Part shown: in pieces, positions 6,548-24,536 of the stretch
Layout: each line of letters begins with the position of its first letter
Numbering within the stretch: the stretch's first letter is position 1
Source of the DNA: Desulfuromonadales bacterium
GTDB lineage: Bacteria; Desulfobacterota; Desulfuromonadia; Geobacterales; Pseudopelobacteraceae
Length of the DNA stretch: 64,000 nt
Direction: 5' to 3'
Assembly: GCA_016650295.1 (NCBI GenBank)
Contig: JAENWA010000063.1
Location: 1-64,000, forward strand
Program-made: the position numbers and the translations under genes
The notes under the pieces: generated by a model
Seen by the model: only the letters and a program-made list of their open reading frames with translations
The model's database searches: none
Told to the model about the DNA's origin: nothing

Positions 6548-8191
6548 ATGAAAAAGACGGTATTAAAGCTGGTTCTAACCGCACTGGTTGCGGGGATGTC
6601 CCTGCCCCTGTCGGCGCAGGCTGCTGATGATGCTCTGATGAAAAAAATCGAGCAGATGTCGCGGGAGCTGGATGAGTTGAGAAACCAGGTCAAGATGAAC
6701 GAAGAAAAGGCTGCCAGATCGGCTGAAGAGCAAAAGAATGCGGCAACTAAGAGTGATGCAAAAGAAATTGAGGGACTGAAAAACAAGGTCGCCAAGATTG
6801 AAGAAAAATCAATCGGCAGATGGTTGACCATTGGTGGAGATTATCGCTTCAGGATGGACTCGCTGCATGGTCGGACTGCTGCGTACACGGATGCCCCGAC
6901 CCTGAGTGGTCTTATGCCTCAAGTATTGGCAGGAACTTTGCCATTTCAGGCCGCTATGGCTGCTGCTGCTCGTCAGGCCGATAAGCCCAAGAACGAAACC
7001 CTTTACACCAACAAGTTCGGTCTCGACCTGCATGCCAAGGCTCTTCAGGACGTGACTGTTAACGTCAAACTGGACATGTACAAGACTTTTGGCTCCCAAA
7101 GCGACAATGCCACGACTGGCAACTATTTTGCTGATCGCATCGGCGTGATGGACGGTACCATCGGTCATGTTCCATCCGACGGCCTGCTGAATGTTGATCG
7201 TGCCTATGCAACCTGGAGTAATATCCTGGATCAGCCGGTCTGGTTTTCGGTTGGTCGACGACCTTCCACCAATGGCGCTCCCAGTAATCTCAAGCTGAAT
7301 AATGAGCGTCCCGGAAATGGTGGAACTCCTTCACTGCTGGTTGATTATGCCTTTGACGGTATGACCCTCGGTTATGCCCCTGACATTGATATATTGCCCG
7401 GCGCCTATGCCAAGGTCTGCTACGGTCGAGGTTTTGACAGTGGCTTCAAGACAGTCAATAACAGCATCAAGGACACGGACATGCTTGGGGTTGCTGTCAT
7501 ACCGTACGAGACCGACCCGCTGCGAGTATGGCTGCAGTGGAACCGCGGTTTCAACATTTTCGATTCATCAGTCATGAAAGATACCGTTTTCGGCAATACC
7601 AATGTTTCCACCAATCTTGGCAGTATCGATTGGTACGGTGCCGGCGCCATGAGTACACTTAAAAAAGTTGGACCCGGCAACCTGAATATCTTTGCGGACT
7701 TCGGTCTGAGCGTTACCCATCCCAACACGAATACTTCAAACGGACTTGGTCTCATGAGTGGCACATTCGATGCGTTATTCGCTGGTACTCCTGAACCAAA
7801 TACCAGCAAGACCGGTTGGGGTGTATACGCAGGTGTTCGTTATGACCTCCCCTCAAAAACTAAAATCGGTTTCGAATTCAATCATGGTTCGAAGGACTGG
7901 ATCCCCTTTACGCCTGCAGCAGATGACATGTGGACCAGTAAAGTCGGTGCGCGTGGAAATGTGTATGAGCCGTACATTATTCAGGAACTTAACCTCAAGC
8001 CCCTATCCAGCTATTTTGCCAAGGCGTTTTTCAAGCTTGGCTACCAGTACTACGATTTCGAGTACACCGGCAGCAACAACTGGGTCGGTTCTCCGGTGAA
8101 GATCTCTTCCATACAGCCGTCAACAATTCTAATGCTGGCGCCTGTGAAATCCGCCCATGATATTTATGGCACTTTCGAAGTGAAGTTCTAA
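6548..8191 (+). CDS. extI: outer-membrane porin, DUF3373/ExtI-like (selenite/tellurite-locus porin)
   Basis: signal peptide, coiled-coil N-terminus, beta-barrel C-terminus ending in F (GTFEVKF); adjacent to ExtJ/ExtH-like genes. Confidence 0.65.
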   Translation: MKKTVLKLVLTALVAGMSLPLSAQAADDALMKKIEQMSRELDELRNQVKMNEEKAARSAEEQKNAATKSDAKEIEGLKNKVAKIEEKSIGRWLTIGGDYRFRMDSLHGRTAAYTDAPTLSGLMPQVLAGTLPFQAAMAAAARQADKPKNETLYTNKFGLDLHAKALQDVTVNVKLDMYKTFGSQSDNATTGNYFADRIGVMDGTIGHVPSDGLLNVDRAYATWSNILDQPVWFSVGRRPSTNGAPSNLKLNNERPGNGGTPSLLVDYAFDGMTLGYAPDIDILPGAYAKVCYGRGFDSGFKTVNNSIKDTDMLGVAVIPYETDPLRVWLQWNRGFNIFDSSVMKDTVFGNTNVSTNLGSIDWYGAGAMSTLKKVGPGNLNIFADFGLSVTHPNTNTSNGLGLMSGTFDALFAGTPEPNTSKTGWGVYAGVRYDLPSKTKIGFEFNHGSKDWIPFTPAADDMWTSKVGARGNVYEPYIIQELNLKPLSSYFAKAFFKLGYQYYDFEYTGSNNWVGSPVKISSIQPSTILMLAPVKSAHDIYGTFEVKF

Positions 8192-8312
8192 CGTCAATTC
8201 TGTAAACCGGGCGGTGTTGCTTCGCCCGATTTACAGATCCGATTAAACTATGTAACAACGGATTGTATCTAATAAAAAGTATTGTAACCATAGATTGGAT
8301 AAGGAGTTGAAA

Positions 8313-8636
8313 ATGAAAAAAATACTATCGGTTGTTGTAATGGTCGCCCTGATGCTGGTTTCGGTACTTACCTTTTCACGCCAGGCACAGGCTGAAGAAT
8401 TGAAGATGGTGGGCACCATTTCCAAAATCGAGCTGTCTGCCGATAAAAAGTCCGCCACCGCAATCCTGAAGGATTCAAAAAGCGGCGAAGAAGTCACGAT
8501 ACTGGTCAGTGACGAACTGACGCTGGATAAATTCATGGACAAACGTATTGTTGAAGGCGATGAAATCAGGTGTAAATTTGAAAAAATGGACGGCAAGAAC
8601 AGCAGCAAGATGTTCAAGAAAACAGCCGGCTGCTGA
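8313..8636 (+). CDS. extJ: small periplasmic protein, ExtJ-like
   Basis: signal peptide then ~80 aa beta-rich domain ending ...FKKTAGC; position between porin and rhodanese. Confidence 0.5.
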   Translation: MKKILSVVVMVALMLVSVLTFSRQAQAEELKMVGTISKIELSADKKSATAILKDSKSGEEVTILVSDELTLDKFMDKRIVEGDEIRCKFEKMDGKNSSKMFKKTAGC

Positions 8637-8660
8637 TTTCCTTTGGGAGGGACACACAGT

Positions 8661-10070
8661 ATGAGTTATGAAAACAAACATCCTGTTGTACTGGCGCTGG
8701 CGGTCGGAATCTGGATCTCTGCTGCTGTTGCCTTCGCTGCAGAGCCTGGCGCTCCGGCAGCAAAGCCGACCATTGCAAAAATCTGCACCACCTGTCACAA
8801 GGCTGAAACGGGCGCTGTTCGCGGCTATTTTGATGGCGTGTCGTTCAAGGTCAAAACCATCCAGGTGAAGATCGATGATGCCACTGAGTTGATTACGTTT
8901 GATGAAGACGATATTAAGGTAATAAACGGCGCCGGCAAGACCGGTGACGGTGAGTTTTTGAAAGACAACCTGATTAAAAGAGGGCATGAAATCAAGGTTG
9001 AATACACGGAGAAGAACGGTGTCAAGACGGCTGTCAGGTTGATTGAAAAACCGCCGGTCAAGGTGTCGGAAGAGCTGATGATAAAAACAGCGGATATTGA
9101 AAAACTTGTCGCCCAGGGCCCGGAAAAGAGGAAATATTATCTCTTCGATACGCGCCCGCTGCCGCGCTTCCAGGAAGGATCTATCCCCACGGCCGTCAAC
9201 CTTCCTTACCCTGCATTCGACAAACTGGCTGAAATGTTGCTGCCGAAGGACAAGAGCGCCCTGGTTATTTTCTACTGCGCCGGTCCAACCTGCAGTATGA
9301 GCCCCGGTTCTGCCGCCAAAGCACAAAAAATGGGCTATACCAACCTGAAGGTCTACAAGGACGGCATGCCGGGATGGCTGGACAAGAACTACGGCATTAT
9401 CTCAACCCAGTTCCTGAAAGAGGCCTGGATTGATAAAGATATCCCTCATGTTCTGCTTGATGCTCGTGCCTCAAAAGAGGCCGGCAAAGGATTTATCAAG
9501 GGTGCTGTCGCTTTTCCTGGCAAACAGGTTGCCAAGCTTGTCAAAGGTCTTGACGTCAAGAAAAACGCCCCGATCATGGTGTATGACCAGAAGGGTGGCA
9601 AGGATGCCAGAGCCGTTGCATCGGCCCTGGTCAAGGCCGGATTCAAAAAGGTGCTGGTGCTGACCGGCGGTTTAGAAGCCTGGCAGGCAGCCAACTATGA
9701 AGTTGCCGGCGGCAAGCTGACCGCAAAAGCGAGCTATGTACCCAAACCACGTCCGGGCGAGATTAATCCGGACGAGTTCAAGAAATTTGCAGCAGAACTT
9801 CCGGCCAACGTCATGATCATCGATGTTCGCAGCACACACGAAGGTCATGCCGGCATGCTCAAGACCGCCAAGCTGATCCCGGCCGAAGAAATCAAAGACC
9901 GTCTGACTGAAATACCCAAGGACAAGTTGGTCGTGCTCTACTGTAATACCGGTGTCATAGCCGAGGTGTCCTATCACACCCTCAGGGAACTGGGGTACAC
10001 CAATGTCAAATTTGTCGATGCCAAGACAGTATTCGAAAAAAACGGCAGCTACACAATTTCAAAGGATTGA
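8661..10070 (+). CDS. extH: multi-rhodanese protein with one c-heme motif, ExtH-like
   Basis: CTTCH near N-terminus; rhodanese-like repeats with FYCAGPTC, VYDQKGGKDA and LYCNTGVIAE active-site loops. Confidence 0.65.
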   Translation: MSYENKHPVVLALAVGIWISAAVAFAAEPGAPAAKPTIAKICTTCHKAETGAVRGYFDGVSFKVKTIQVKIDDATELITFDEDDIKVINGAGKTGDGEFLKDNLIKRGHEIKVEYTEKNGVKTAVRLIEKPPVKVSEELMIKTADIEKLVAQGPEKRKYYLFDTRPLPRFQEGSIPTAVNLPYPAFDKLAEMLLPKDKSALVIFYCAGPTCSMSPGSAAKAQKMGYTNLKVYKDGMPGWLDKNYGIISTQFLKEAWIDKDIPHVLLDARASKEAGKGFIKGAVAFPGKQVAKLVKGLDVKKNAPIMVYDQKGGKDARAVASALVKAGFKKVLVLTGGLEAWQAANYEVAGGKLTAKASYVPKPRPGEINPDEFKKFAAELPANVMIIDVRSTHEGHAGMLKTAKLIPAEEIKDRLTEIPKDKLVVLYCNTGVIAEVSYHTLRELGYTNVKFVDAKTVFEKNGSYTISKD

Positions 10071-10258
10071 CTTTGTAATACATTCAATCTCGACCAGCTG
10101 GCTGGAATTGCACGCCTGATTTACTCAAGCACTTGGAGTCTTTTTATTTATCAGAAAACATTCATAAATGTATATACATGGAAATAGCGCTGTATTGGCC
10201 TGGCATTAGTTACTAAAAGTTTTCAATAAATATGTCTGAGATTGAAAGGAAATGAAAC

Positions 10259-11626
10259 ATGTCCGGAAAGATAACAGTGATCATGCTGGGATGCGCCTTG
10301 CTGGCAGCAACTGTTCAGGCCAAGGAGCATCCGGGAAAAGAGCAGATACTCAAGGAGGGCTATCAGGGACCAAAAACTTGTGAAACATGCCATCCCGGCA
10401 AGGCCAGGGAGTTTTTGGGAACGGTGCATTGGAAGCATGCCTCAAAGGTTGATCACGTCGATAACATTGACCCCAACGAAGAGTACGGCATGAAAAACCG
10501 TATCTATACGATGTGCAACGGTAGCGATATCGTCAACAACCTCAAGGAAGTGCCGCCGAACGCGCTCGGCAAGACCAAGTTTACCGGCTGCAATACCTGC
10601 CACCCGGGCGATCATAGCAGCGATGTCGGCAGTACCGGTCCCCAGGCGGAACAGGCGATAGATTGCCTGATATGCCATTCTTTCAAGTATGACTTCAGCA
10701 AGAGAAAAGCGGTCAAGAGTGAAGACGGCAAGGTTGTGATGACCCAGGATCGCAGCACCGAGGCAGCAGCCAACATCGGCCGGCCGACCATCAAGAATTG
10801 TATGGCCTGTCACGAGGCCGCCGGCGGCGGAGCCATGATCAAGCGTGGATTTTCCATGGCCCAGAAGGACGAGGTTCACGTAACCAAGGGCATCATCTGC
10901 GTAGACTGTCATCAGGTGAAAAACCACAGATTTCCCACCGGTCGCGATCCCAACAACTGGGCTAATGACGGTATCTATATGACCTGTGTCGGTGAATGCC
11001 ACAGCGTCACACCGCATAAGGATGCCGATTACAACAGGCATATCGCAAAGATTGCCTGCCAGACCTGCCATATCCCGAAGACCGGCGGCGCTTTCTCCAA
11101 AGACTTCACCAAGTGGGAGAAGCAATCCAACGGTTTTTACGAGCCTTCCACCTTGAAGCGCGAGGTGAATGAAACTGCACCCGTGTACGCCTGGTACAAC
11201 CTGACGGTCAGTAATACTCCGCACTTTATAGGTCCCAAGGGGAGCAGAACGGATGGAAAAAGCAAGATTTACCCGTTCAAGATTTTCCAGGGTAAAGCCT
11301 ATTTCAACAAGAAGGACGGCAAGTTGCTGTCAATGGATTTCGCGTCGCCGATTGCAACCGGAGATACTCTGGCGGGTGTCGCCTCTGCCGCCAGGATTCT
11401 CGGTATCAAGGAGTATGAACCGGTTCCGGGATGGCAGACAATCTACTTTGGAAGCAACCACCAGGTTGCACCCAAAAACAAGGCGTTGAGCTGTGCCAAC
11501 TGTCATGCGCTCAATGGCGTGCTTAATTTTAAAGAGCTGGGGTACAGCCCGAAGGAAGTTGAGAAGCTTACCAACCCTGAACTTTATTTTGAAAAGCTGC
11601 TCAAGCTGCAGCAGGAGAACGAATAG
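10259..11626 (+). CDS. octaheme c-type cytochrome, octaheme tetrathionate reductase (OTR)-like
   Basis: CETCH, CNTCH, CLICH, CMACH, CVDCH, CVGECH (CX3CH), CQTCH, CANCH; CMACHEAAGGGAMIKRG resembles OTR-family motif. Confidence 0.7.
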   Translation: MSGKITVIMLGCALLAATVQAKEHPGKEQILKEGYQGPKTCETCHPGKAREFLGTVHWKHASKVDHVDNIDPNEEYGMKNRIYTMCNGSDIVNNLKEVPPNALGKTKFTGCNTCHPGDHSSDVGSTGPQAEQAIDCLICHSFKYDFSKRKAVKSEDGKVVMTQDRSTEAAANIGRPTIKNCMACHEAAGGGAMIKRGFSMAQKDEVHVTKGIICVDCHQVKNHRFPTGRDPNNWANDGIYMTCVGECHSVTPHKDADYNRHIAKIACQTCHIPKTGGAFSKDFTKWEKQSNGFYEPSTLKREVNETAPVYAWYNLTVSNTPHFIGPKGSRTDGKSKIYPFKIFQGKAYFNKKDGKLLSMDFASPIATGDTLAGVASAARILGIKEYEPVPGWQTIYFGSNHQVAPKNKALSCANCHALNGVLNFKELGYSPKEVEKLTNPELYFEKLLKLQQENE

Positions 11627-11695
11627 TTTTCTGACTTCTCGTGAAGGGGCATGATTGTTTCACGCCCCAGGTTCTTTGCAACTCATTATTTCATC

Positions 11696-11795
11696 GTAGG
11701 TTGGGTTAGCTGCCTCATCGCGTAACCCAACAGCTTTGAATGTTGCCAGCTTGGTTATGTTGGGTTACGGCATACACCCGCCTAACCCAACCTAC
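11696..11795. repeat. MITE-like palindromic element
   Basis: terminal inverted repeats gtaggttgggtta / taacccaacctac with internal cgtaacccaac / gttgggttacg. Confidence 0.75.
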
Positions 11796-11863
11796 AAAAG
11801 CAACGAAAGAAATCCTTATCACAGATATCTTCTAACATCCCGGTCTTCCATAGGAGGTAAATC

Positions 11864-14062
11864 GTGTCGCCAAAATTCTCTCGAAGAACTTTTTTCAAGG
11901 TTTCAGGTGCAGCCACAGCGGGTTTGACCGTAGCTGCTACATTACCTAAAAAGTTCCTCTCCTGGGCCGAAGAGGCCGGCCAGAAAGATATGAAGCAGAT
12001 CCCCACCTTCTGCGAGCTCTGTTTCTGGAACTGCGGCTTGATCGCCAAGGTGGAAAACAACAAGGTCGTCAAGGTCGATGGAAACCCGCTCAGCCTGCGC
12101 GGCCGCGGTCGTCTCTGCGGCCGTGGCAATGCAGCACTGGGGGCGCTGTACGACCCGGACCGCCTCAAGTATCCGATGATCAATACCGGCAAGCGCGGGG
12201 AACCTGTCTGGAAGCGGGCCAGCTGGGATGAGGCACTGGGACTGATTGCAGAAAAGATGAATGTCATCAAGCAAAAGTACGGTGCGGAGTCCATGGCGCT
12301 GTTTTCGCATGGAACCGGTGGAGCTTTCTGGAAGCACCTGCTCAAGGCCTATGGCTGCAGCAACTATACCGCGCCCTCGTTTGCCCAGTGTCGCGGTCCT
12401 CGTGATATGGGGTTTTACCTGACCTACGGTTCGGATGTCGGTTCGCCTGAATACTATGATTTCAGCAAAAGCAAATACATAGTCCTGCTCGGCTCGCACC
12501 TGGGAGAGAATGCCCATAACAGCCAGGTGCAGGACATCATGAGCGGCCTGGCCGATGGCGCACGGTTGACAGTGGTAGATCCGCGCCTCTCCAATATTGC
12601 CTCCAAGGCCGACCACTGGCTGCCGATCAAGCCGGCCAGCGATCTGGCGCTGCTTCTGGCCTGGATCAGGATCATCATTGAGGAGGGGTTGTACGACAAG
12701 GAGTATATCGCGAAATACGCCTCCGGATTCGACGAACTGCGGGCAGCTGTGCAGCAGTATACCCCGGAGTGGGCCGAGTCCGAGACAACCATCGCGAGTG
12801 ATACCATCGTCAAGGTGGCCCGCGAGATGGGCAGGAATTCCCCGCATGTCTGTGTCGGCGCCGGTCGCTACGCCGTCTGGTATGGTGACGATACCCAGCG
12901 CAGCCGGGCCATTGCCATACTCAATGCCCTGCTCGGTTCCTGGGGGCGCGAAGGCGGTTATTTCTTTCCAGCCAAGGGTGGTGTGCCCGAATATCCCGGA
13001 CTGCCGGACTACCCGCCCCACGAAGAGGTACCCAAGCTGGATGACGCCTATCCGTTTGCCGCACTGCAGACGACGACCTCCATCAAGCAGGCCTCCATCA
13101 GCGGTAAGCCGCACCCGATCAAGGGGTGGTTCATCTACGGCTGCAACCTGATGAAGACCATGCCGGACAAGCAAGAGACCATCAAGGCCCTGCAGAACCT
13201 TGACCTGGTGGTCGCCATTGATGTACTGCCGGCCGAAATCATCGCTTGGGCTGATATCGTCCTGCCGGAGTGTACCTACATGGAGCGCTACGATAATATC
13301 AACGTGGGCAAATTCAAGGATCTGGAGATATCCCTGCGTCAGCCGACGGTTGAACCGCTCTGGGAGTCCAGGCCGTCCTGGTGGATGACCAGGGAACTGG
13401 GTAACAAGCTTGGCCTGGCGGCCTACTTTCCCTGGAAGGATGGCGAGGAGTACCTGGCCAAACGCTGCGAGTCGGGTGGCATTGACTTTGCCGAACTCAA
13501 GAAAAAGGGTGTCCTTGTCAAGACCGACACGTCGTCCCCCTACATCACCGCCGATAGCCAACCCGAGTTCGGGACCCCTTCCGGCAAGATCGAGCTGTAT
13601 TCAAAGCAGCTGGAGGAGAAGGGTTTTGATCCCGTGCCAAAATACACCCGCCATCCCCAGCCGCCGGCCGGCTACTTCCGCCTGCTGTTCGGGCGGTCGT
13701 CCCTGCATACCTTCTCCCGGACCACCAACAACTTCATGTTGACCGACCTGCAGAAGGAAAACGCGCTCTGGATGAATGCAAAAAAAGGGAAAGAACTGGG
13801 ACTGACAAACGGGGAATATGTCTCGCTGATCAACCAGGACGGGGTCGCGGCGCCCGGCCGGATCAAGGTCAAGCTGACCCAGCGTATGCGCGATGATGCC
13901 GTCTACATGTACCACGGCTTCGGCGTTCATGCCAAAGGGATGACCCGCGCCAATAACCAGGGGATAGCCGATGATGACCTGATCTCGAAATATGTCATTG
14001 ACCCGATCATGGGCGGCACCGCCATGCGCGGAAATTTTGTCAAGATTGTGAAGGGGGCCTGA
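11864..14062 (+). CDS. molybdopterin-dependent oxidoreductase catalytic subunit (Psr/Phs/Srr-like CISM, TAT-exported)
   Basis: GTG start, SRRTFFKVSG twin-arginine motif, CELCFWNCG + CGRGN 4Fe-4S motif, molybdopterin-binding C-terminus. Confidence 0.9.
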   Translation: MSPKFSRRTFFKVSGAATAGLTVAATLPKKFLSWAEEAGQKDMKQIPTFCELCFWNCGLIAKVENNKVVKVDGNPLSLRGRGRLCGRGNAALGALYDPDRLKYPMINTGKRGEPVWKRASWDEALGLIAEKMNVIKQKYGAESMALFSHGTGGAFWKHLLKAYGCSNYTAPSFAQCRGPRDMGFYLTYGSDVGSPEYYDFSKSKYIVLLGSHLGENAHNSQVQDIMSGLADGARLTVVDPRLSNIASKADHWLPIKPASDLALLLAWIRIIIEEGLYDKEYIAKYASGFDELRAAVQQYTPEWAESETTIASDTIVKVAREMGRNSPHVCVGAGRYAVWYGDDTQRSRAIAILNALLGSWGREGGYFFPAKGGVPEYPGLPDYPPHEEVPKLDDAYPFAALQTTTSIKQASISGKPHPIKGWFIYGCNLMKTMPDKQETIKALQNLDLVVAIDVLPAEIIAWADIVLPECTYMERYDNINVGKFKDLEISLRQPTVEPLWESRPSWWMTRELGNKLGLAAYFPWKDGEEYLAKRCESGGIDFAELKKKGVLVKTDTSSPYITADSQPEFGTPSGKIELYSKQLEEKGFDPVPKYTRHPQPPAGYFRLLFGRSSLHTFSRTTNNFMLTDLQKENALWMNAKKGKELGLTNGEYVSLINQDGVAAPGRIKVKLTQRMRDDAVYMYHGFGVHAKGMTRANNQGIADDDLISKYVIDPIMGGTAMRGNFVKIVKGA

Positions 14063-14063
14063 T

Positions 14064-15221
14064 ATGCAGCTATTCGGAGTTCTCATTCCCGAAAAGAAAC
14101 AGCTTCTCGCCACGGCGACGGATGTGGTCAAGGGAAGAGCCGGCCTGTCACTGTATGCATCCCTGTTCGGCCTGGCGATCGGATTCTACGCCATCGCCGC
14201 CATCTTCATCCAGGGGCACGCCCATACCATCAACACCTCCAACCTGGTCCCCTGGGGGCTGCAGATATCCACCTATGTCTATTTTGCGCTGCTCAGCACC
14301 GGCTGCACCTTTGTCAATTTCTTCGGCCACGTCTTCTTTGAAAAGCAGTACCGGCCCTTTGCCTCGCGGATCATCTTTGTCGGCATTATTACTGCCGTGG
14401 CGGCCTTCTTCTCCCTGGCAACCGAGATGGGGCACATCGAGCGGATGTACAACTTTCTGCTGTATCCAAACCCCAAGTCTCCCATGTTCTGGATGGCCAT
14501 CTGGTATACCTGTTACCTGATCGCCATCACCTGGGAATACATCAATATCCAGACCAACCGGCATTCCAACCGGGTCATGTGGGGGGCGTTTTTTGTCGCA
14601 ATCTTTACTCACAGTACCCTGGGAAGCCTGCTGGGGTCGGTCAGTTCGCGTGTCTACTACTACAGCGCGCTGATGCCGATCTACTTCCTGTTTATCGCCT
14701 TCCTGACCGGCTGTTCACTTACGACCATCATTGCTGCCATGACGGTCAAACAGCAGAAACTGAATGAGAACTACCATCTGCATCCGTTTGTGACACTGCT
14801 CAAGATCGGATTGGGGCTGGCGCTCCTGATCACCTTCTGGCGCACCATGATCGGCCTTTCCGCTCACCTGGAGGGTTCCGAGGTGTTCTCGCTGACGCTG
14901 ATCAATAGCGTGCTGTTCGGAATCGTGGTGGTCATCATCATCCCCTACATCCTGCTCAAAATCGGCACAAGCGCCAACTGGCTGATCTTTGTGGGGCTCT
15001 TCATCATGGGCACCCAGCTCAAGGCCCGTAACGACCTGGTGATCGGCGCCTTCAAGATCCCGCTGTTCCGGGTCTACGACATGCCCGAGGTGGTGCACTA
15101 CGCACCTTCGATGTACGAGTACCTGGTGGTGGTAGCGTCGGCCTCGCTCGTGACGGTGATGTACATTGTTTTTGAACGTTCCGGCGTTTTTGAGGCCCGC
15201 GCCATCAAGGAGGACCACTGA
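14064..15221 (+). CDS. NrfD/PsrC family membrane subunit
   Basis: multi-TM 385 aa protein between catalytic and Fe-S subunits. Confidence 0.85.
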   Translation: MQLFGVLIPEKKQLLATATDVVKGRAGLSLYASLFGLAIGFYAIAAIFIQGHAHTINTSNLVPWGLQISTYVYFALLSTGCTFVNFFGHVFFEKQYRPFASRIIFVGIITAVAAFFSLATEMGHIERMYNFLLYPNPKSPMFWMAIWYTCYLIAITWEYINIQTNRHSNRVMWGAFFVAIFTHSTLGSLLGSVSSRVYYYSALMPIYFLFIAFLTGCSLTTIIAAMTVKQQKLNENYHLHPFVTLLKIGLGLALLITFWRTMIGLSAHLEGSEVFSLTLINSVLFGIVVVIIIPYILLKIGTSANWLIFVGLFIMGTQLKARNDLVIGAFKIPLFRVYDMPEVVHYAPSMYEYLVVVASASLVTVMYIVFERSGVFEARAIKEDH

Positions 15222-15223
15222 CC

Positions 15224-15940
15224 ATGGAACAGTTTGACGGTAAGGATATTCTGGATATCATGCACGTAGATTTGCAGCGGGCATTGAAAAAACCCCGCAA
15301 GGAGCGGCGCTGGGCCATGGCCATCGACCTGAAGAAGTGCATCGGCTGCCACGCCTGCACCACCGGCTGCATGTCCGAGAACCTGACTCCGCCCGAGATT
15401 CATTATCGCCCGGTCAAGGAAGAGGAGATCGGTGAGTTTCCCAACACCGGTATGCGTTTTCTGCCGCGTCCCTGCATGCAGTGTGATTCACCGACCTGCA
15501 CGCCGGTCTGCCCGGTGACAGCCACCTACAAGCGGGATGACGGCATCGTGGTCATCGATTACGAAAAGTGCATCGGCTGCCGCTATTGCCTGGTGGCCTG
15601 CCCCTACGGCGCCCGCTCGGCCGATATGGGGCATTATTTCACCGGCGATTTTCACGGCAAGACCTACGAGGTGGAGAACTCCGGCGAGTACGGCAAGTCC
15701 TACAAACGCAAGAGCCACTGGCATTCGCCCATCGGCAATGCCCGCAAATGTCATTTCTGCATCCATCGCATAGAAAAGGGTGAACTGACCCGCTGTACCA
15801 CCACCTGCCTGGGGAGTGCGACCTTTTTTGGCGATATCAACGATCCGCAGGCCTTGATCACCAGACTGATCTCCAGGCCAAACGTGTTCAGGTATAAGGA
15901 GGAGTTGGGGACGAAACCGATGGTATACTATATCTCGTAG
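15224..15940 (+). CDS. 4Fe-4S dicluster electron-transfer subunit (PsrB/PhsB-like)
   Basis: CIGCHACTTGC, CMQCDSPTCTPVCP, CIGCRYCLVACPYG, CHFCIHRIEKGELTRCTTTC. Confidence 0.9.
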   Translation: MEQFDGKDILDIMHVDLQRALKKPRKERRWAMAIDLKKCIGCHACTTGCMSENLTPPEIHYRPVKEEEIGEFPNTGMRFLPRPCMQCDSPTCTPVCPVTATYKRDDGIVVIDYEKCIGCRYCLVACPYGARSADMGHYFTGDFHGKTYEVENSGEYGKSYKRKSHWHSPIGNARKCHFCIHRIEKGELTRCTTTCLGSATFFGDINDPQALITRLISRPNVFRYKEELGTKPMVYYIS

Positions 15941-15965
15941 TCGGAAATTGTTTTGGGGAGGGATC

Positions 15966-16310
15966 ATGAGATTGAAATTAATCCTGATAGCGACAATGTT
16001 ACTTGTATCAGTTTGCGGGATTGCCTACGGGGCCTCCATGCAGGATATCATCTACCAGGGTGACACGGCTTCCGACGCGGCGATATTCCATGGAGATCAG
16101 CACCTGAAGAGAGGCTTGAAATGTAATGATTGCCATAACAAGGAGATGTTTCCCGAAAAGAAAAAAGGGGCAACTGTCATAACCATGAAGGACATCCAGC
16201 AGGGTAGACTCTGTGGAAAATGCCATAACGGGAAGATCGCGTTCGGCATTGATCATCACTGCGACAGATGCCACCCCAGAAAAGGGCCTGACACGATTAT
16301 TTATGACTGA
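15966..16310 (+). CDS. triheme c-type cytochrome (c3/c7-like)
   Basis: signal peptide; CNDCH, CGKCH, CDRCH. Confidence 0.85.
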   Translation: MRLKLILIATMLLVSVCGIAYGASMQDIIYQGDTASDAAIFHGDQHLKRGLKCNDCHNKEMFPEKKKGATVITMKDIQQGRLCGKCHNGKIAFGIDHHCDRCHPRKGPDTIIYD

Positions 16311-16414
16311 CCTTGACCAATTGAACCTATGGAATATTTCAGGTAAATCTTCTGATAACTGAACACATGCTTACGCCGGTTCGCCGGACACACACCACAA
16401 TAAGGAGAGAAGAC

Positions 16415-16651
16415 ATGAAGAAACTCGCAGTTATGATGGTTGCCGCCCTGATGGCCCTTAGCTTCGTAACGGTTGTACTGGCCGAAGAAAAGAAGGAAGA
16501 GAAACCAGTTGCTGAAAAAGCAGCAAAGAAGGATGTCAAGAAGGACAAAAAAGACTCCAAGAAAGTCGTAAAAAAGGACTCTAAAAAAGATGCCAAGAAG
16601 GAAGATGCCAAGCCGGCGGTCAAAGGGAAAAAGGAAGTTTCCGGCTGCTAG
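16415..16651 (+). CDS. lysine-rich secreted small protein with C-terminal Gly-Cys
   Basis: signal peptide + KKDVKKDKKDSKKVVKKDSKKDAKKEDAK...SGC; RBS upstream. Confidence 0.6.
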   Translation: MKKLAVMMVAALMALSFVTVVLAEEKKEEKPVAEKAAKKDVKKDKKDSKKVVKKDSKKDAKKEDAKPAVKGKKEVSGC

Positions 16652-16723
16652 GCACGTAGTATGGAGCAATAGTGGGCACGGGATTCTCGTGCCCCCTGTT
16701 TAGGGCTGAGAGGAGGAAACGTT

Positions 16724-18469
16724 GTGACCAGTGTCGCCATAGTTTTCAGTCTGCTGTTTATTGCGGTAACAGCCGTCCAGGCCGCAAACGGTTGTCGTGA
16801 TTGCCACGAAAACCAATCAAAAATGAATGCCCTGGGTTACGGGCATTTCAGCGTGATTCAAAAGGAGGTGGAGGCACAGAGTCACATGCCGGCCACCTGC
16901 AATGAATGTCATCTTGGTAACCCGGCTGAAAGCGACAAAGCTGCCGCCCACAAAGGTTTGGCGCGGCTGCTGGTCGTTTCCAAAAAGGGATTGACGGCAT
17001 TTACGTCGGCTCGCGCCTATCCTCTGAAGTACGGGACGAATCAGGTGAATCGGATCTATACGGTTGTGAACAAAGACAGGAAAACGGTTAAGGATTCCTC
17101 TGTCGCAGCCATTTCGTGGCACGACAAGAGCAGCGATACCTTGAGTCAGGATTTCAACGTCATGAAAAAGACCTGTGGCGCCTGCCATGAAAAGGAGTTT
17201 GAAGAGTTCTCCCGAAGCACCATGGCAACCAACGGCAAGCAGAGCCAATACAAGGGATGGACCGACAAGAAGCGCGGTCCCCATAACTGCGGCCCCTGGT
17301 TCGATGGCAACTTTGAGACCATGCAGCAAAACACGGCACTACCCATGTCACCCGAGAGCCACCGGATCAACCAGAAGGTCTGCAACACCTGCCATGTGGG
17401 CTGTCTGGATTGCCATTTCAACCCGCAAAAGAATAATACTGCCGACCGGTCCAAAGGGGCCCACAGCTTTACAAAGACCCCGCCATCCGAGAGTTGCTAT
17501 GGCAATGGCCGGGCATCCATCTGCCATGCCGGGCCTGAAGATCGCCGTCGCGGAGCAGGATATTTTGGCGGTTCCTTCTCGTTCCCCGAAGGCAATGCGC
17601 CCGACGTACATCTGAAGGCCAAAGTCGGCTGTCTTGATTGTCATGAAAGTTCGAAAAGCAACCCGGTGATCGGGCACGCCATGGTCAAGCGTCAAGCCCG
17701 GGATTCATGTCAACGTTGTCATGCGGAAGCGGTCAGGAGTCATGCGACATCACGGCACAGGAACCATTCCTGCGAAGCCTGCCATATCCGGAATGTGGCC
17801 GGGTACCAAGGCACTTATTGGGGACCGGGCACTATAGCTGGTGCCGCAACCCCCTATTTCAAGTTTAAAGCCTATTACGGCTTCATGTCGGAACCGATCC
17901 TGATCAGGGATCAAAAAGGGCGCTGGATTCCGGTCAAACCCTTTCCCATGGCAGCCATGAACCAGAAGGCCTCTCCTTATGAGCCGGGGCTCCATTGGCG
18001 CTACCCGGCCGGTCTGCCGGACCTGCAACGAACCGACGACGCCTGGGCGTATGCAGGGCTTTTTGGCGGCATGCCGGAGAACAACAAAGCCATGCTCTGG
18101 ATCCAGATGGACAAGCTGTCGCATAAACTGGGCAAAAGCCGTTCGTGCGACTCGTGCCACGCCTCCCCTGAAGGCACCCAGCTACAGAAGGTCAGCTGGG
18201 AATACAGCGATCCGGGCGCTTTCCCATTCAACGGCAGCCACGAGGTGTTTGCCAATAATAGCGGCCTGTTTATCAGAAAGATGCAATCGGAGAAGATCGA
18301 ACTGGAGCCGGGCTATGCCCTCTCGGCGCTGGCCCCCTGGGTATATCTGAAAGACAAATGGCAGGTGCGGGGAGACTTCTCACTGCCTCCTCTTGCGGAC
18401 CGGAAAGCTTATGAGTCGGTACGGAAAGCCCCTGACTCTGCGCAAAAGTCGGGCATCATCCATCGCTGA
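16724..18469 (+). CDS. multiheme c-type cytochrome (9 CxxCH + one possible CX8CH); ExtM/ExtN-type candidate
   Basis: CRDCH, CNECH, CGACH, CNTCH, CLDCH x2, CQRCH, CEACH, CDSCH; GTG start. Confidence 0.8.
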   Translation: MTSVAIVFSLLFIAVTAVQAANGCRDCHENQSKMNALGYGHFSVIQKEVEAQSHMPATCNECHLGNPAESDKAAAHKGLARLLVVSKKGLTAFTSARAYPLKYGTNQVNRIYTVVNKDRKTVKDSSVAAISWHDKSSDTLSQDFNVMKKTCGACHEKEFEEFSRSTMATNGKQSQYKGWTDKKRGPHNCGPWFDGNFETMQQNTALPMSPESHRINQKVCNTCHVGCLDCHFNPQKNNTADRSKGAHSFTKTPPSESCYGNGRASICHAGPEDRRRGAGYFGGSFSFPEGNAPDVHLKAKVGCLDCHESSKSNPVIGHAMVKRQARDSCQRCHAEAVRSHATSRHRNHSCEACHIRNVAGYQGTYWGPGTIAGAATPYFKFKAYYGFMSEPILIRDQKGRWIPVKPFPMAAMNQKASPYEPGLHWRYPAGLPDLQRTDDAWAYAGLFGGMPENNKAMLWIQMDKLSHKLGKSRSCDSCHASPEGTQLQKVSWEYSDPGAFPFNGSHEVFANNSGLFIRKMQSEKIELEPGYALSALAPWVYLKDKWQVRGDFSLPPLADRKAYESVRKAPDSAQKSGIIHR

Positions 18470-18505
18470 TCGGTGCCCAGGCCAGGACTATTTCGCTGGA
18501 GACGT

Positions 18506-20365
18506 ATGAAAATAAGCTCCTTCAACCTGATAACTACGGCGGTCTGTCTCTTTTTGGGATTGGCAGCATTCTGTCTTGAAAGTTGCTCGCGTGTCCCTTC
18601 CCGGTCGGGCTGCATATCGTGCCATAATGCCCTTGAAGCTGCTTCGGTGAACCACCCCTCTTGCAGTGCCTGCCACGGCGGCAATGAGAATGCGACCGAC
18701 AAGTCCGTGGCCCATTCCGGCATGCATGGTCCGGCCAATCCATCCGAGCCCGCAGTCTGGGACGAGAGCTGCGGCCGCTGTCACCGTTATCAGCTGGAGC
18801 GGGTCGGATCGACGATCATGCAGACCAATGCCGGCATGATTCGCAACATCCAGCTGACCTGGGAGGGGGAGGATGGCAACCGGTACACCACGCATGGCGA
18901 AAAGCAGTTCGATGCTGACGGCCAGCAGTTTTCGCCCAAACCGGTGGAAGAGCTGGACAACCTCTCCGGAGAACTGTACCGCAAGTTCTGTTCCCGCTGC
19001 CACATCGGCTCCGGCAATGCGGGATCCTATGGCGCCACCCATGCCTCCGGCTGCGCGGCCTGTCATTTCCCCTGGAACAATGAAGGTGTTTATACCGGCA
19101 GCGATGCAACCATGAAGGGCCGGGCCGGCCACTCCGCCAGCCATGCCATGACGGCCCTGCCCGATACCCAAGTCTGCGCGCGCTGCCATAACCGCAGCGG
19201 CCGGATCGCATTATCCTACCAGGGATTGAATGACGGCAACAACGGTCTGGTCCCCACCTCCGGCGGAGAAGGCGGGCCGCTGATGACCAGCGGCGCCCGC
19301 AACCTGACTCACATCACACCCGACGTGCACTTTGCGGCCGGGATGGAGTGCATCGACTGCCACACCTCGCGGGACGTGATGGGGGACGGCTTCGCCTATC
19401 GCACCATGTACCTGCAGACCGAGATCGCCTGTGAAGACTGCCACGGCACGGCCCGCGAGCTCCCGCGCTATCGCGAGATCATCCGCGAAAACGACGAGGC
19501 CCTGCGGGAGTCGCGCAATTACAAGCTGCCGGTGACCTCCGGCATGAATATGATCCGGACCGTCAAGGGGCGCAGTTACTCCAATGTTTTCTACCGCGAC
19601 AATGCGGTCTGGGTGGCCGGCAAAAAGAGCGGTAAACTGCACAGGAGCAAGGTCATCACCGGCACGCCGGAACATGATCTTGCCGGACACGAGCGGCTTG
19701 AATGCTACAGCTGCCATTCCCGCGCCGTACCGCAATGCTACGGCTGCCATACCACCTATGACAAGCGGCGGAGCGGCCGTGATTTCATCAAGGGGGCCGA
19801 TACGCCCGGCTCATTCAGCGAGAGCGAGGATTATCGGATGCTCTACCCATTTCCGCTGGCGCTCAACCAGCGGGGGCGCATCTCGCCCGTGACCCCCGGT
19901 TGCCAGACGTTTGTAAGCGTGACAGAGCCGGATGGCAGCCGCTCAAAGACAGAATATGTCTCAATGTTTAAAGGCAGGCAGCAGCTGCGCTTCGCGCCGT
20001 TCTACTCCCACAACACGGGCAAAAAGGCTGTCGGATGCGCCGAATGTCACGGCAACCCGGCCTTTCTCGGCTTCGGCCAGCATGTGGTGGAACGGGAAGG
20101 CATCAAGGGGACCCTGATCTGTGAACGCTCCGACAGCAAGCCGCTGGATGGTTTTCTGACGCTGGACAAGGGGCGGGTTAAGGCCTATTCCGCGATTACC
20201 CGCGAGAATGCCCGCCCGCTGAACGGCGCGGAGGTGAAGAAGACACTGAAGGTCAATCTCTGTCTTCCCTGCCATGACAAACCGAAAGACCCGATCTACC
20301 GGAAAGGACTCGATTATCGTGCGCTTGATGATGATCTTCATCGCCGTTTATTATCTGACCGCTAG
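18506..20365 (+). CDS. dodecaheme c-type cytochrome, possibly lipoprotein
   Basis: 12 CxxCH motifs counted; N-terminal hydrophobic segment ending CLESCSR. Confidence 0.85.
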   Translation: MKISSFNLITTAVCLFLGLAAFCLESCSRVPSRSGCISCHNALEAASVNHPSCSACHGGNENATDKSVAHSGMHGPANPSEPAVWDESCGRCHRYQLERVGSTIMQTNAGMIRNIQLTWEGEDGNRYTTHGEKQFDADGQQFSPKPVEELDNLSGELYRKFCSRCHIGSGNAGSYGATHASGCAACHFPWNNEGVYTGSDATMKGRAGHSASHAMTALPDTQVCARCHNRSGRIALSYQGLNDGNNGLVPTSGGEGGPLMTSGARNLTHITPDVHFAAGMECIDCHTSRDVMGDGFAYRTMYLQTEIACEDCHGTARELPRYREIIRENDEALRESRNYKLPVTSGMNMIRTVKGRSYSNVFYRDNAVWVAGKKSGKLHRSKVITGTPEHDLAGHERLECYSCHSRAVPQCYGCHTTYDKRRSGRDFIKGADTPGSFSESEDYRMLYPFPLALNQRGRISPVTPGCQTFVSVTEPDGSRSKTEYVSMFKGRQQLRFAPFYSHNTGKKAVGCAECHGNPAFLGFGQHVVEREGIKGTLICERSDSKPLDGFLTLDKGRVKAYSAITRENARPLNGAEVKKTLKVNLCLPCHDKPKDPIYRKGLDYRALDDDLHRRLLSDR

Positions 20366-21503
20366 TATTCCTGCGTTGGCAGTTCACGGCGGATCGATCT
20401 GTGTCTCGTGCCATCGCAGCGATACAGCCCGTCTCGACTCGTCCGGCGGCTGCGTGGTATGTCATCGGGAGCACGAGCGGATCTTCGGGTATGCCATGGG
20501 GAAGCGGGACGGCGAAAAACAGTTTGCCCAGCGCAGCTACGGGCGCTTTGATTCCGACTTCTGGGAGAAAAACTGCGATTCCTGCCATCTGCAGGGGTGC
20601 AGCGACTGTCACGGCGCTGTCGGAAACATACGTAAACCGACGGTGGCAGACTGCCAGAAATGTCACACAGGCTACTACACCGGCTGGGACTACTCCGGCC
20701 GCGCTCCCCGTGAAGACAACCTGCGCTACCAGCGGGGCCTGGCCGTCAACGGCGAGACCTTTCTGAAGATGCTGCCGGATGTGCACTACCGGGCCGGGAT
20801 GACCTGCGGGGCCTGCCATTCCATGAGCAGCCTGAAGGACGGACAGAAGGCTTCCAAAGGCTGCCGCGACTGTCACCAACCGAGCATGAAACCGGTCGAA
20901 CACCGCATTGCTGCACATCTGGAGCGGTTGGAGTGCTACGCCTGCCACTCGGCCTGGGCGGCCCAGGAGTACGGCACCTTCTTCCTCCGTTTTCGCGACC
21001 AACGGATGAAGGAGGATTTTGACCTCAAGGCAGGATCAAGCGCAGAATACCTGCGCAGCAGCTACCTTAAAAAGCAGGACGCACCGCCCCTGGGAATCAA
21101 CAACCGGGGCCTGGTCAGCCCGATCCGCCCCATGTTCATAGCCTATTACACGGATATCATGTCGGCCCGCAACAACGGCCCTGAAAACACCCTGCTGGCG
21201 ACCGAATGGCGGGCCTGGTTCCCGCATACGGTTCAGCGGGGCTGTGTAACCTGCGAAGGGTGTCACGACAACCCGGCCCGTTTTCTGCTGGAGCCGGAAT
21301 CCCGGCGGATATACAATCTCACCAAGGACGGCATGGGCCTGGAGTCGTTCTGGCTTCAGAAAGGACAGCGGGTAAGCAACGGCAGTTTCATGGACGCCGC
21401 CCGCTACCTGCGCATGAGCAGCAAAAGCCCGGCCTATACAAAGGCGTACATCGAAAAATGGAAAACATTCCTCAATCACGTCGAAAATTCATCACGACCC
21501 TAG
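20328..21503 (+). CDS. nonaheme c-type cytochrome; ExtM/ExtN-type candidate
   Basis: 9 CxxCH motifs; overlaps the 3' end of upstream cytochrome gene. Confidence 0.8.
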   Translation: MMIFIAVYYLTASIPALAVHGGSICVSCHRSDTARLDSSGGCVVCHREHERIFGYAMGKRDGEKQFAQRSYGRFDSDFWEKNCDSCHLQGCSDCHGAVGNIRKPTVADCQKCHTGYYTGWDYSGRAPREDNLRYQRGLAVNGETFLKMLPDVHYRAGMTCGACHSMSSLKDGQKASKGCRDCHQPSMKPVEHRIAAHLERLECYACHSAWAAQEYGTFFLRFRDQRMKEDFDLKAGSSAEYLRSSYLKKQDAPPLGINNRGLVSPIRPMFIAYYTDIMSARNNGPENTLLATEWRAWFPHTVQRGCVTCEGCHDNPARFLLEPESRRIYNLTKDGMGLESFWLQKGQRVSNGSFMDAARYLRMSSKSPAYTKAYIEKWKTFLNHVENSSRP

Positions 21504-21856
21504 CCCTGCTGCTCGGTTCCGGCGGGCTGCTCTGGCGTTATCTGACCCCGACCGTCGCACGGCGGCGGCAGGTTGTCGCACGGGCGCCCAGGGCGGATGT
21601 GCCGGTTGAGGGCGCCCTGATCTTCCGTCAGGAGCGGGTGGCGCTGCTGCGGGAAGGGGATGTGATCCATGCCCTGGGCCTGGTCTGCACGCATCTGGGC
21701 TGCACCGTGACGGTCACCGGCAGCGGACTCTCCTGCCCCTGTCACGGCAGCCGTTTCGACCGGCAGGGGAGGGTGCTGAAAGGGCCGGCGGACCGGCCGT
21801 TGAGCAGGTTGAAGGTGGAAGAAATGGATGGGGTGGTTGAGGTGCTGGATGGGTGA
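21458..21856 (+). CDS. extO: Rieske 2Fe-2S protein, ExtO-like
   Basis: MENIPQSRRKFITTLALLLG TAT-type signal; CTHLGC...CPCHGS; start overlaps upstream cytochrome by 46 bp. Confidence 0.7.
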   Translation: MENIPQSRRKFITTLALLLGSGGLLWRYLTPTVARRRQVVARAPRADVPVEGALIFRQERVALLREGDVIHALGLVCTHLGCTVTVTGSGLSCPCHGSRFDRQGRVLKGPADRPLSRLKVEEMDGVVEVLDG

Positions 21857-21999
21857 GATTGTTTCGATTTTTGATGGCTGCATGCTTGCCTGTCTGTGGA
21901 TTGGAGGCAAACTCCGACGTTAACCAACCCGGCACGGACTTGAGCTGCGTCCGTTTCAATGATTTCAGTTGAATTTGTGTTAGTTGCGCAAGTAACGGT

Positions 22000-22413
22000 C
22001 TATTTGGATTCCAGGTTTTTGTGGCATATCAAGCAAAGCTCGTCCCCCTCGCGAATGAGGTGAGGAGATGGTTTGGTGAGATTATGACAGGATAAGCAGG
22101 TGATTTTGCCCTCTTCGAGAAAACAGCCCGCGCGTTCGATTATACTCACTGAGGCATAATCCTTCTCCTTGCCGATGGGCGGATAACGGTGCATAAGTGA
22201 ATGGGTCTTGCTGTAGAGGCAGTTATCACCAGTGCAGATGGTGACCGGTTTTCCCATTTTGACATTATGGCACTTGAGGCAATCCTGCATCCTGAGTAAA
22301 TCGGCCGCTTCCTTCTGATGGTACGGGTTGTTTCCGCAGAGACTGAGCATGGCGCCGCTTGCCAAGACAGTGATGATGAGTTGCAACTTATTTATTTTAC
22401 TCAATATTATCAC
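22000..22413 (-). CDS. triheme c-type cytochrome, probable lipoprotein, antisense to flanking operon
   Basis: CLKCH, CLSCH, CLICH; N-terminal hydrophobic segment with LSLC. Confidence 0.75.
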   Translation of the reverse strand: MIILSKINKLQLIITVLASGAMLSLCGNNPYHQKEAADLLRMQDCLKCHNVKMGKPVTICTGDNCLYSKTHSLMHRYPPIGKEKDYASVSIIERAGCFLEEGKITCLSCHNLTKPSPHLIREGDELCLICHKNLESK

Positions 22414-22729
22414 CCTCTATCTAAGTGGTACCATATCCTTTTCTCTTAGAATTACTGGGACCATCTTATTTAATTCCTGACCCTCCTGAGACGTTGAACC
22501 CAATTCCTGTACAAACCAGCCTTATGTCTTAAAACCTCAGCGCCTCACAGCAGATTACTCAACCAGCCACGGCTGACTTAATCAATTTATATCACGATTT
22601 CGCCAATAAGCCAGAATACATGTATGAAAATAAACTACTGCCCTGTAGCGGGGCGAAAAGTCAGCTGGATTTCTGAACCCAACAGGTATAGATATATCAA
22701 TATGTCTATCTCCAGGTATGTTCATCGTC

Positions 22730-23350
22730 ATGATCACTGACTTCCTTAAACATCTCTTTCCCCGCGTGGTGCTGGAGAAAAACCTGCGCTTCAGCTACAC
22801 CTTCTGTCTGGGTGGACTGGCATTTACCGCCTTTCTGCTGCTGCTGGCCAGCGGTATGCTGCTGCTGGTCTATTACCAGCCGACACCGGAGCGGGCCTTC
22901 AATTCGGTCCTCTTTCTGGAATCAGCTGTGTGGGGAGGCAAGTACCTGCGCAGCCTGCATCGCCTGACATCCCACGTCCTGCTTATCCTGATCATGCTGC
23001 ATACCCTGCGGGTGACCCTGACCGGCGCCTGGCAGCGTCCCCGGCAGCTTAACTGGGTAATCGGCTGCCTGCTGCTTTTTCTGGCCGTGTTCGAGGCCTA
23101 TACCGGATACCTGCTGCCCCGCGATCAGCTGGCCTACTGGGCGACCCAGACCGGCATGGAACTGTTGGCCGCGGCCCCGTTCGGCAACTTCCTGCGCTCG
23201 CTGCTGGTGCCGGACGGAGTCGGCCAGCCGCTGTCGCTGCTCCGCTTTTATGCCCTCCACATCGCCATGATTCCGCTGACTGTGCTGTCATTGTCGTTCC
23301 TGCACTTCTATCGGGTCAGAAAGAACAAGGGAGTTCTGCCGTATCTATGA
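22730..23350 (+). CDS. extP: cytochrome b6-type membrane protein, ExtP-like
   Basis: RSLHRLTSHVLLILIMLHTLRV and YTGYLLPRDQLAYWATQ, ALHIAMIP; cytochrome b N-terminal architecture. Confidence 0.7.
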   Translation: MITDFLKHLFPRVVLEKNLRFSYTFCLGGLAFTAFLLLLASGMLLLVYYQPTPERAFNSVLFLESAVWGGKYLRSLHRLTSHVLLILIMLHTLRVTLTGAWQRPRQLNWVIGCLLLFLAVFEAYTGYLLPRDQLAYWATQTGMELLAAAPFGNFLRSLLVPDGVGQPLSLLRFYALHIAMIPLTVLSLSFLHFYRVRKNKGVLPYL

Positions 23351-23757
23351 AAAACGGATTCGTAAAAAGCTCACCGCATTTTTTCCGGCTCATAACCCGT
23401 TCCATGTACGCGCTGGTTGCGATTCTGCTGGTGCTTGCAACAGTCATCACCGCCCCGCTCCAGGAACAGGCCAATCCTGCCCTCACGCCAAATCCGGCCA
23501 AGTCGGCCTGGTTTCTGCTCTGGGTCCAGGAACTGGTCAGCTGGTCCCGCCTCATGATCTATCCGGTCATGCTGCTGGGCTGCCTTTTTCTGCTGCTCCC
23601 CTGGCTGCCTGGCTCCGGTCGCATGCACCGGGCCAGCTGGTTTCCGCGCGAGCAGCGGGTCGTTTCAGCAGTTACCATCATTCTAACCGCCGGCATCCTG
23701 GTACTTACCGTCATAGCTCTGTTTTTCAGGGGTTCCAATTGGTCTCTGCTGTCCTGA
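23347..23757 (+). CDS. extQ: membrane protein, ExtQ-like
   Basis: 3 predicted TM helices; directly downstream of cytochrome b (cytochrome b C-terminal-like position). Confidence 0.6.
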   Translation: MKNGFVKSSPHFFRLITRSMYALVAILLVLATVITAPLQEQANPALTPNPAKSAWFLLWVQELVSWSRLMIYPVMLLGCLFLLLPWLPGSGRMHRASWFPREQRVVSAVTIILTAGILVLTVIALFFRGSNWSLLS

Positions 23758-24536
23758 TCATCGCACTGCTGCTGGTCTCCCTTCCCGCCTGGGGGGAGCA
23801 GCCCCGGCAGATGTGCCAGGTTTGCCATCCCGTCCATTATGCGGAGCGCGGCGGATGCCCGGACTGCCATCGGGGCAATCCATCGTCAGACCGCAAAAAC
23901 ATTGCTCACGCAGGGCTGATCCCAGGAAAATACACATACTTTGCCCTCGGTGACCAGCCGCACGTCAAAAACGGCAATCGCCTGATTGATCAGTACGCCT
24001 GTCGGCGCTGTCATGTCATTGATGGGCGCGGGAACCGTCTTGCCGTAAGTCTTGACGTGGCGGCAGCTGGTAAGACACCGGTCGAACTGGCCGGGTCCAT
24101 CCGGAGGCCGGCGGAATTCATGCCGGATTTCGGCATGGATGAGGCACGAATAACGTACCTTCTCAATGCGCTCCTGGCTGGTTCGCACAGACACACGACG
24201 GATGGAGGCGGCCCGGTGGCCGTGCATTTCGACACCGCCCGTAAAAAGAGCGATGTTTTCTCCATCAAGTGCGGTTCCTGTCACCGCCTGCTGAGCGAGA
24301 AGCGGGGAGCATTGGGAAAGGGAAACATCGGCCCAAACCTGTCCGGACTTCTTTCAAACTATTATCCGAAGACATTCAGGAATAGTGAGGCCTGGACAGT
24401 GCGAAGACTCAAGAGTTGGCTGGATAACCCCCGGACAATCAAAACAGGAGCAAGGATGCGGCCGGTTATCCTGACGGGGCAGGAATTTAGCGAGTTGGTG
24501 GATATTCTGAAGGTGGAGCATGCTGAAGAAATATAA
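23739..24536 (+). CDS. extS: c-type cytochrome (4 CxxCH), ExtS-like
   Basis: CQVCH, CPDCH, CRRCH, CGSCH; signal peptide. Confidence 0.65.
   Translation: MVSAVLIIALLLVSLPAWGEQPRQMCQVCHPVHYAERGGCPDCHRGNPSSDRKNIAHAGLIPGKYTYFALGDQPHVKNGNRLIDQYACRRCHVIDGRGNRLAVSLDVAAAGKTPVELAGSIRRPAEFMPDFGMDEARITYLLNALLAGSHRHTTDGGGPVAVHFDTARKKSDVFSIKCGSCHRLLSEKRGALGKGNIGPNLSGLLSNYYPKTFRNSEAWTVRRLKSWLDNPRTIKTGARMRPVILTGQEFSELVDILKVEHAEEI

Follow-up and report, generated by a model that had tools for sequence, protein, structure and literature searches.

The window analysed here, positions 1 to 64 000 of contig JAENWA010000063.1 (64 000 nucleotides) from the Desulfuromonadales bacterium assembly GCA_016650295.1, carries at 6548–24536 an operon (genes on the + strand unless stated) that is a variant combining two known kinds of system, the electron-transfer chain of the ext locus and a Psr-type reductase. 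In this ExtM-N-O-P-Q-S operon the slot of the terminal oxidoreductase is held by a Psr-family molybdoenzyme, accompanied by NrfD-type and 4Fe-4S (FeS) subunits, and the enzyme's occurrence there is reciprocal with that of ExtKL. In Geobacter sulfurreducens, the upstream half of the ext locus encodes ExtH (a rhodanese), ExtI (a porin), ExtJ (a small protein) and ExtKL (a pentaheme selenoprotein) (PMC5877670; PMC6148476). The locus in the window is probably a conserved operon for respiring a sulfane-sulfur compound, be it polysulfide, dissolved S0 or a thiosulfate-like species, with the ext electron chain as its base. The arrangement recasts the ext locus, so far linked to selenite and tellurite only, as one form of a modular chain with a swappable terminal enzyme, either a selenocysteine cytochrome or a Psr-like molybdoenzyme, and this makes the natural substrate testable.

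When 141 genomes of the order were searched, and about 80 loci fetched and compared by tblastn, ExtM was found over its cut-off in 84 genomes. A molybdoenzyme of clade A (66–91% identity) or clade B (54–58%) was present in 48 of the 141, usually on the same contig, and in all 34 fetched loci containing both it and ExtM (34/34) it lies upstream of ExtM on the shared strand. The clade A order is porin, small secreted protein, heme-rhodanese, (OTR), molybdoenzyme, NrfD, FeS subunit, (cytochrome c7), (Lys-rich protein), ExtM-S, while in clade B the molybdoenzyme is followed by the FeS subunit and by a membrane protein of approximately 320 amino acids that sits in the same slot and is NrfD-like by position. 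Strains with a clade B molybdoenzyme include Geomonas sp. Red32 and Geomonas silvestris Red330 (L153 and L156), both of which have a Lys-rich gene, and Red32 a small-protein gene as well. A preliminary description of this locus, made from the sequence alone, had named chance proximity of the molybdoenzyme and OTR to ext genes as grounds for dismissing the arrangement. Neighbourhood comparison rules such chance proximity out, as the gene order recurs in several families of the order and the molybdoenzyme–ext linkage in many species. Nor is the locus a hybrid in the sense of a single case; it is the commoner form among the ExtM genomes of the order. Searches of open-access papers returned no description of a molybdoenzyme in an ext locus; the arrangement is widespread, and undescribed in the papers searched. 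That it differs from the described ext locus, as had been suggested, is true of G. sulfurreducens.

Of the terminal enzymes, ExtKL occurs alone in 28 of the 84 ExtM genomes and a Psr-like molybdoenzyme (of three clades) alone in 50, with both in 2 and neither in 4 (Fisher p = 9e-16, kinship ignored). An ExtM tree requires at least four switches, always in opposite directions where informative. In a Geopsychrobacter metagenome-assembled genome (L181), the order is ExtH-ExtI-ExtJ-molybdoenzyme-FeS-NrfD-ExtM-N-Rieske-P-Q-S and a clade B-like molybdoenzyme stands exactly in the ExtKL slot. Clade C enzymes (36–42% identity) were found in seven genomes. The best-covered clade C locus (L216) contains ExtH, ExtI, ExtJ, a TorD/DmsD-like chaperone, the molybdoenzyme, its FeS subunit, the Rieske protein, ExtP, ExtQ and ExtS; NrfD is absent from the operon and there is no ExtM or ExtN between. 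From the 28/50/2/4 reciprocity, it seems that ExtKL and the Psr-like molybdoenzymes stand in for each other as terminal oxidoreductases of one common chain.

The ext genes in the window are limited to ExtM, ExtN, a probable ExtO (the Rieske protein), a probable ExtP, ExtQ and ExtS, in an order identical to that of G. sulfurreducens extHIJKLMNOPQS; the downstream half of the locus was rightly called ext-type. ExtM (18506–20365, 12 hemes; NF040943, 1025 bits, cut-off 800), ExtN (20274–21503, nine CXXCH motifs; NF040967, 572.6 bits, cut-off 200), the membrane protein ExtQ (23347–23757; NF040970, 183 bits, cut-off 150) and the four-heme cytochrome ExtS (23739–24536; NF040971, 327 bits, cut-off 100) all exceed their NCBIfam equivalog cut-offs. 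The cytochrome b part consists of two proteins, ExtQ and an ExtP-like cytochrome b (22718–23350), for which NF040969 is the best-matching family at 224.6 bits, below its cut-off of 290. ExtO (21458–21856, start taken from the sequence) has a twin-arginine translocation (TAT)-like N terminus and a Rieske domain (PF00355, 48 bits), and its position is syntenic. NCBIfam model NF040968 (FeS_ExtO) scored 580 bits on the ExtN cytochrome, gave no match to the Rieske protein and seems to have been built from the wrong protein.

Upstream, the two loci resemble each other in having a porin, a rhodanese, a small secreted protein and proteins that end in Gly-Cys. However, the ExtH, ExtI and ExtJ counterparts that had been assumed were not recovered. 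The NCBIfam models for these proteins, which scored 621, 732 and 84 bits, respectively, on the reference ext locus as a positive control, returned no match in the window, and across the whole genome (G000) ExtI was not found and nothing matched ExtKL above its cut-off. The outer-membrane porin of the window (6548–8191) belongs to the DUF3373 family (PF11853, 507 bits), and the secreted heme-rhodanese (8661–10070), with three rhodanese domains (PF00581) behind a single heme c motif (CXXCH), is also from another family than its ext counterpart. In G070, G117, G081, G097, G103 and G104, tblastn found ExtH and ExtI coexisting with the window-type porin and rhodanese as separate genes, and together with the lack of model matches this rules out the possibility that the window rhodanese and porin are ExtH and ExtI homologues. 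ExtKL's place is taken by the Psr-like molybdoenzyme, NrfD, FeS subunit and OTR.

The TAT-type catalytic subunit (11864–14062) belongs to clade A, and its nearest solved structure is Thermus PsrA (688 bits, approximately 44% identity). Cys176 (codon 12389), invariant in a 27-sequence alignment, occupies the position of the Cys that binds molybdenum in Psr. With NrfD-type (14064–15221; PF03916, 71 bits) and FeS (15224–15940; DsrO/TtrB/ArrB-type family matches, 154 bits to Thermus PsrB) subunits also present, the earlier assignment to the Psr/Phs type is well founded. The window enzyme shares with Thermus thermophilus Psr (2vpw–2vpz) the catalytic and FeS subunits, the TAT signal and the position of the molybdenum-ligand Cys. 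It differs in its gene order (molybdoenzyme-NrfD-FeS, embedded in ExtM-S) and in a membrane subunit that is not detectably similar by sequence; the NrfD subunit found no sequence match in the PDB. A quick tree of catalytic subunits, which has some long branches, supports A and B as two distinct clades. The neighbours of clade A are Nitrospirota enzymes, while the branch of clade B includes Geopsychrobacter and Myxococcota ext loci. A plasmid search returned only distant Escherichia coli and Salmonella PhsA.

Relatives of the enzyme that lack ext genes lie beside genes of sulfur metabolism. In Nitrospirota a DsrE-family protein and an SQR-like FAD protein adjoin the molybdoenzyme, and in Ignavibacteriota YeeE/YedE sulfur transporters and a rhodanese do so. 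A Psr operon that includes a secreted triple-rhodanese protein is upregulated during S0 disproportionation in Desulfurivibrio dismutans AMeS2 (PMC12142623); it resembles the window locus in this pairing, but is without an ext chain, and the paper describes no c-type heme on the rhodanese. No DsrA over the cut-off was found in the genome to which the window belongs. Because of the similarity to Psr, the sulfur-gene neighbours, the D. dismutans operon and the lack of DsrA, we favour polysulfide or another sulfane-sulfur compound over selenite as the likeliest candidate substrate.

Two secreted proteins of the operon end in Gly-Cys and are candidate chalcogen carriers: a small protein (8313–8636, ending FKKTAGC) and a Lys-rich arm protein (16415–16651, ending GKKEVSGC). 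They are the only plausible proteins with such an end in the window. The end is kept in 31/31 homologues of the small protein and 24/24 of the Lys-rich protein, as well as in 16/17 of ExtJ and 29/32 of ExtH, whereas homologues of the other operon proteins all lack it. The stop codons that follow it are mixed (TAA, TAG and TGA), and a reading of these ends as selenocysteine is thereby ruled out. Of the 141 genomes of the order, 32 contain exactly one copy of the pattern GKKE[VA][SA]GC-stop; a reversed-pattern control gave 0. A comparable end is found in other phyla, where in 30 loci a rhodanese-domain protein (PF00581) approximately 2.7 kb downstream of the molybdoenzyme ends in KKKKEGC or similar. 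In all of these (30/30) the last residue is the sole conserved Cys, the active-site Cys having been replaced, mostly by Ser. Open reading frames ending in Gly-Cys number 30/352 near the molybdoenzyme in these loci versus 1/306 far from it, and the KKKKEGC tail was present once per genome in 24 of the 40 genomes searched whole (control 0). The AlphaFold model of the small protein is an OB fold (pLDDT 77.5) with a free C-terminal end, for which Foldseek matches to OB folds included CusF/SilF; ExtJ is also predicted to be a small beta protein, with weak fold matches. The searches of open-access papers found Gly-Cys ends nowhere described.

The Gly-Cys end is most simply read as a thiol on a mobile terminus that would carry sulfur or selenium. 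In SoxY, DsrC and Sud, sulfur is bound to a Cys that is mobile or part of a rhodanese, and is presented to an enzyme. The Gly-Cys end may be a swinging-arm thiol akin in principle to the Cys at the C terminus of SoxY or DsrC; there is no homology, and the Cys here is the last residue itself. It is doubtful that the end is instead a structural anchoring or cross-linking signal rather than a catalytic thiol. ExtH, predicted to be a lipoprotein, has a Gly-rich tail, and Lys-rich tails could bind the envelope, but the hydrophobic stretch with which sorting signals end is absent, and the rhodanese fusions have lost their domain Cys while the terminal Cys is invariant. Returning to the carrier reading, we put forward tentatively, at slightly less than even chances, that Psr-family molybdoenzymes and ext-type chains of several bacterial phyla are served by an unrecognized class of periplasmic chalcogen carriers, marked by an invariant Gly-Cys at the C-terminal end of a flexible arm that is often rich in Lys, and that the ext terminal oxidoreductase is exchangeable (ExtKL or Psr-like clade A, B or C). 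If they are sulfur carriers, the Gly-Cys proteins would help to explain how poorly soluble polysulfide or S0 is delivered to a periplasmic enzyme, and their ends would offer an easy sequence tag by which to find such operons in different phyla.

Under the sulfane-sulfur reading, the DUF3373 porin would admit the substrate. Sulfur would be held as a persulfide by the heme-rhodanese and the small secreted Gly-Cys-ending proteins, which would pass it to the molybdoenzyme. This enzyme would receive electrons from menaquinol by two routes, NrfD with the FeS subunit and the branch of Rieske protein, cytochrome b, ExtS and ExtM-N, the latter able to supply OTR as well; the reaction would probably run as a reduction, with sulfide as the product. 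As the clade C operon has no NrfD, the branch of Rieske protein, ExtP, ExtQ and ExtS seems able to feed enzymes of this kind. In clades A and B, NrfD would add a second route, and ExtM/N and OTR may there be the main recipients of electrons from the Rieske branch.

Several points weigh against this reading. When corrected for kinship, the mutual exclusion of ExtKL and molybdoenzyme is not significant (four to five independent pairs, p = 0.25). The profile comparison of the small protein with ExtJ is weak (49% probability over 17 columns), and the carrier role of Gly-Cys is suggested by conservation and position. PhsA, the best NCBIfam family for the catalytic subunit, scores 526.8 bits, below its cut-off of 694. 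The presence of two quinone modules, NrfD and Rieske/cytochrome b, in one operon has no unique explanation, and would also suit a chain running in reverse, with one module for an oxidant and the other as an outlet. Oxidation of a sulfur compound by the molybdoenzyme would then feed the menaquinone pool, and metal oxides would receive the electrons by way of an outward-running ext chain. Metal reduction is known from relatives in the order, but characterized Psr/Phs relatives are reductases, the clade C operon lacks NrfD and has its enzyme directly on the Rieske/cytochrome b branch, and the genome has no DsrA over the cut-off; we regard this direction as very unlikely.

The Psr family includes selenite reductases, and the enzyme could be a SrrA/SrdA-like selenite reductase that has replaced ExtKL, with the Gly-Cys proteins handling selenium. 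The chain and the slot are shared with ExtKL of the G. sulfurreducens locus, in which deletion of ExtI impairs selenite and tellurite reduction (PMC5877670); this too counts against a sulfane-sulfur substrate and leaves room for selenium chemistry. The nearest ext-less relatives, however, adjoin the DsrE, SQR-like and YeeE/YedE sulfur genes described above, and respiration of selenite or tellurite seems unlikely.

The OTR-like octaheme cytochrome (10259–11626) has eight heme motifs, seven CXXCH and one CX3CH. Its Lys195 (codon 10841) aligns with Lys153 of Shewanella OTR, the catalytic heme ligand, and a Lys is kept there in 19/19 OTRs examined. It is like the Shewanella protein (1SP3, E = 5.9e-23) in its eight hemes and catalytic Lys position but unlike it in the CX3CH motif, and the similarity is distant (84.9 bits; TIGR04315, 154.8 bits, below the cut-off of 375). 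OTR accompanies the molybdoenzyme in 17/32 clade A loci and in few clade B loci. Elsewhere in the order many OTR orthologues occur with no molybdoenzyme, so OTR is an optional, separate component and not a core part. The preliminary description had it embedded in an Ext-type module; it is a passenger, present in about half of the clade A loci. A locus from outside the order (L144, CSP1-8) has the order porin-small protein-OTR-molybdoenzyme-NrfD-FeS with no ext genes. Such pairings, with the catalytic Lys retained, and the PhsA match would suit a tetrathionate-to-sulfide pathway, in which OTR, fed by the Rieske branch, would make thiosulfate from tetrathionate, and the molybdoenzyme would split this thiosulfate as Phs does. 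We think this decidedly unlikely, as OTR is missing from about half of the clade A and most of the clade B loci, its orthologues are widespread without the molybdoenzyme, and nitrite and hydroxylamine are reported as further substrates that OTR reduces in vitro.

In the heme-rhodanese, the heme residues Cys48, Cys51 and His52 are conserved in 36/38 homologues, Cys212 in 35/38 and Cys434 in 38/38. After the porin come the small protein and this rhodanese rather than cytochromes, and the complete chain to the outer membrane that had been envisaged is not supported; genes for a porin, a periplasmic cytochrome and an outer-surface lipoprotein cytochrome, together as in Pcc/Mtr-type conduits, were not found in the locus. 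In some relatives (L063, 1381–1812; L111, 5655–6029), a secreted single-domain rhodanese that retains its Cys lies immediately upstream of the porin.

Every gene named in the preliminary description is present, intact and on the + strand, as judged by Pfam, NCBIfam and open reading frame translations, and the locus is tightly packed, with neighbouring genes mostly separated by 1–240 bp or overlapping. One gene had been overlooked. The 861 bp gap between the Rieske gene and ExtP is occupied by a gene on the − strand (22000–22413) for a 137 amino acid, locus-specific multiheme cytochrome (Paired_CXXCH_1) that has no homologue among the other fetched ext loci. With this gene inside it and no Rfam match, the gap is neither a pseudogene nor an RNA. 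In several other genomes, inserts of 0.6–2.1 kb with unrelated open reading frames are found at the same point. The remaining cytochromes are a triheme c7 (15966–16310; TIGR04257, 71 bits, cut-off 40) and a nine-heme protein (16724–18469, nine CXXCH) that falls in no family; the latter has homologues in L101 and L095, and its operon position differs in all three genomes. As had been stated, there is no TorD-type chaperone gene in the locus; two PF02613 proteins are encoded elsewhere in the genome.

An ExtKL-type selenoprotein cytochrome was found near a Psr-like molybdoenzyme, on the opposite strand, in three loci from Nitrospirota and Caldimicrobium (L146, L149 and L150), and ExtKL and Psr thus share neighbourhoods beyond the order. 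A distant ExtM-like cytochrome flanks the Psr-like enzyme in loci from Ignavibacteriota and Gemmatimonadota (L159, L163, L165, L173, L184, L185, L187 and L202); that of L163 has 11 hemes and scores 251 bits against the cut-off of 800. In the window, a TauE/SafE-type exporter of the sulfite exporter family is encoded at 29848–30600, approximately 5 kb downstream of the operon.

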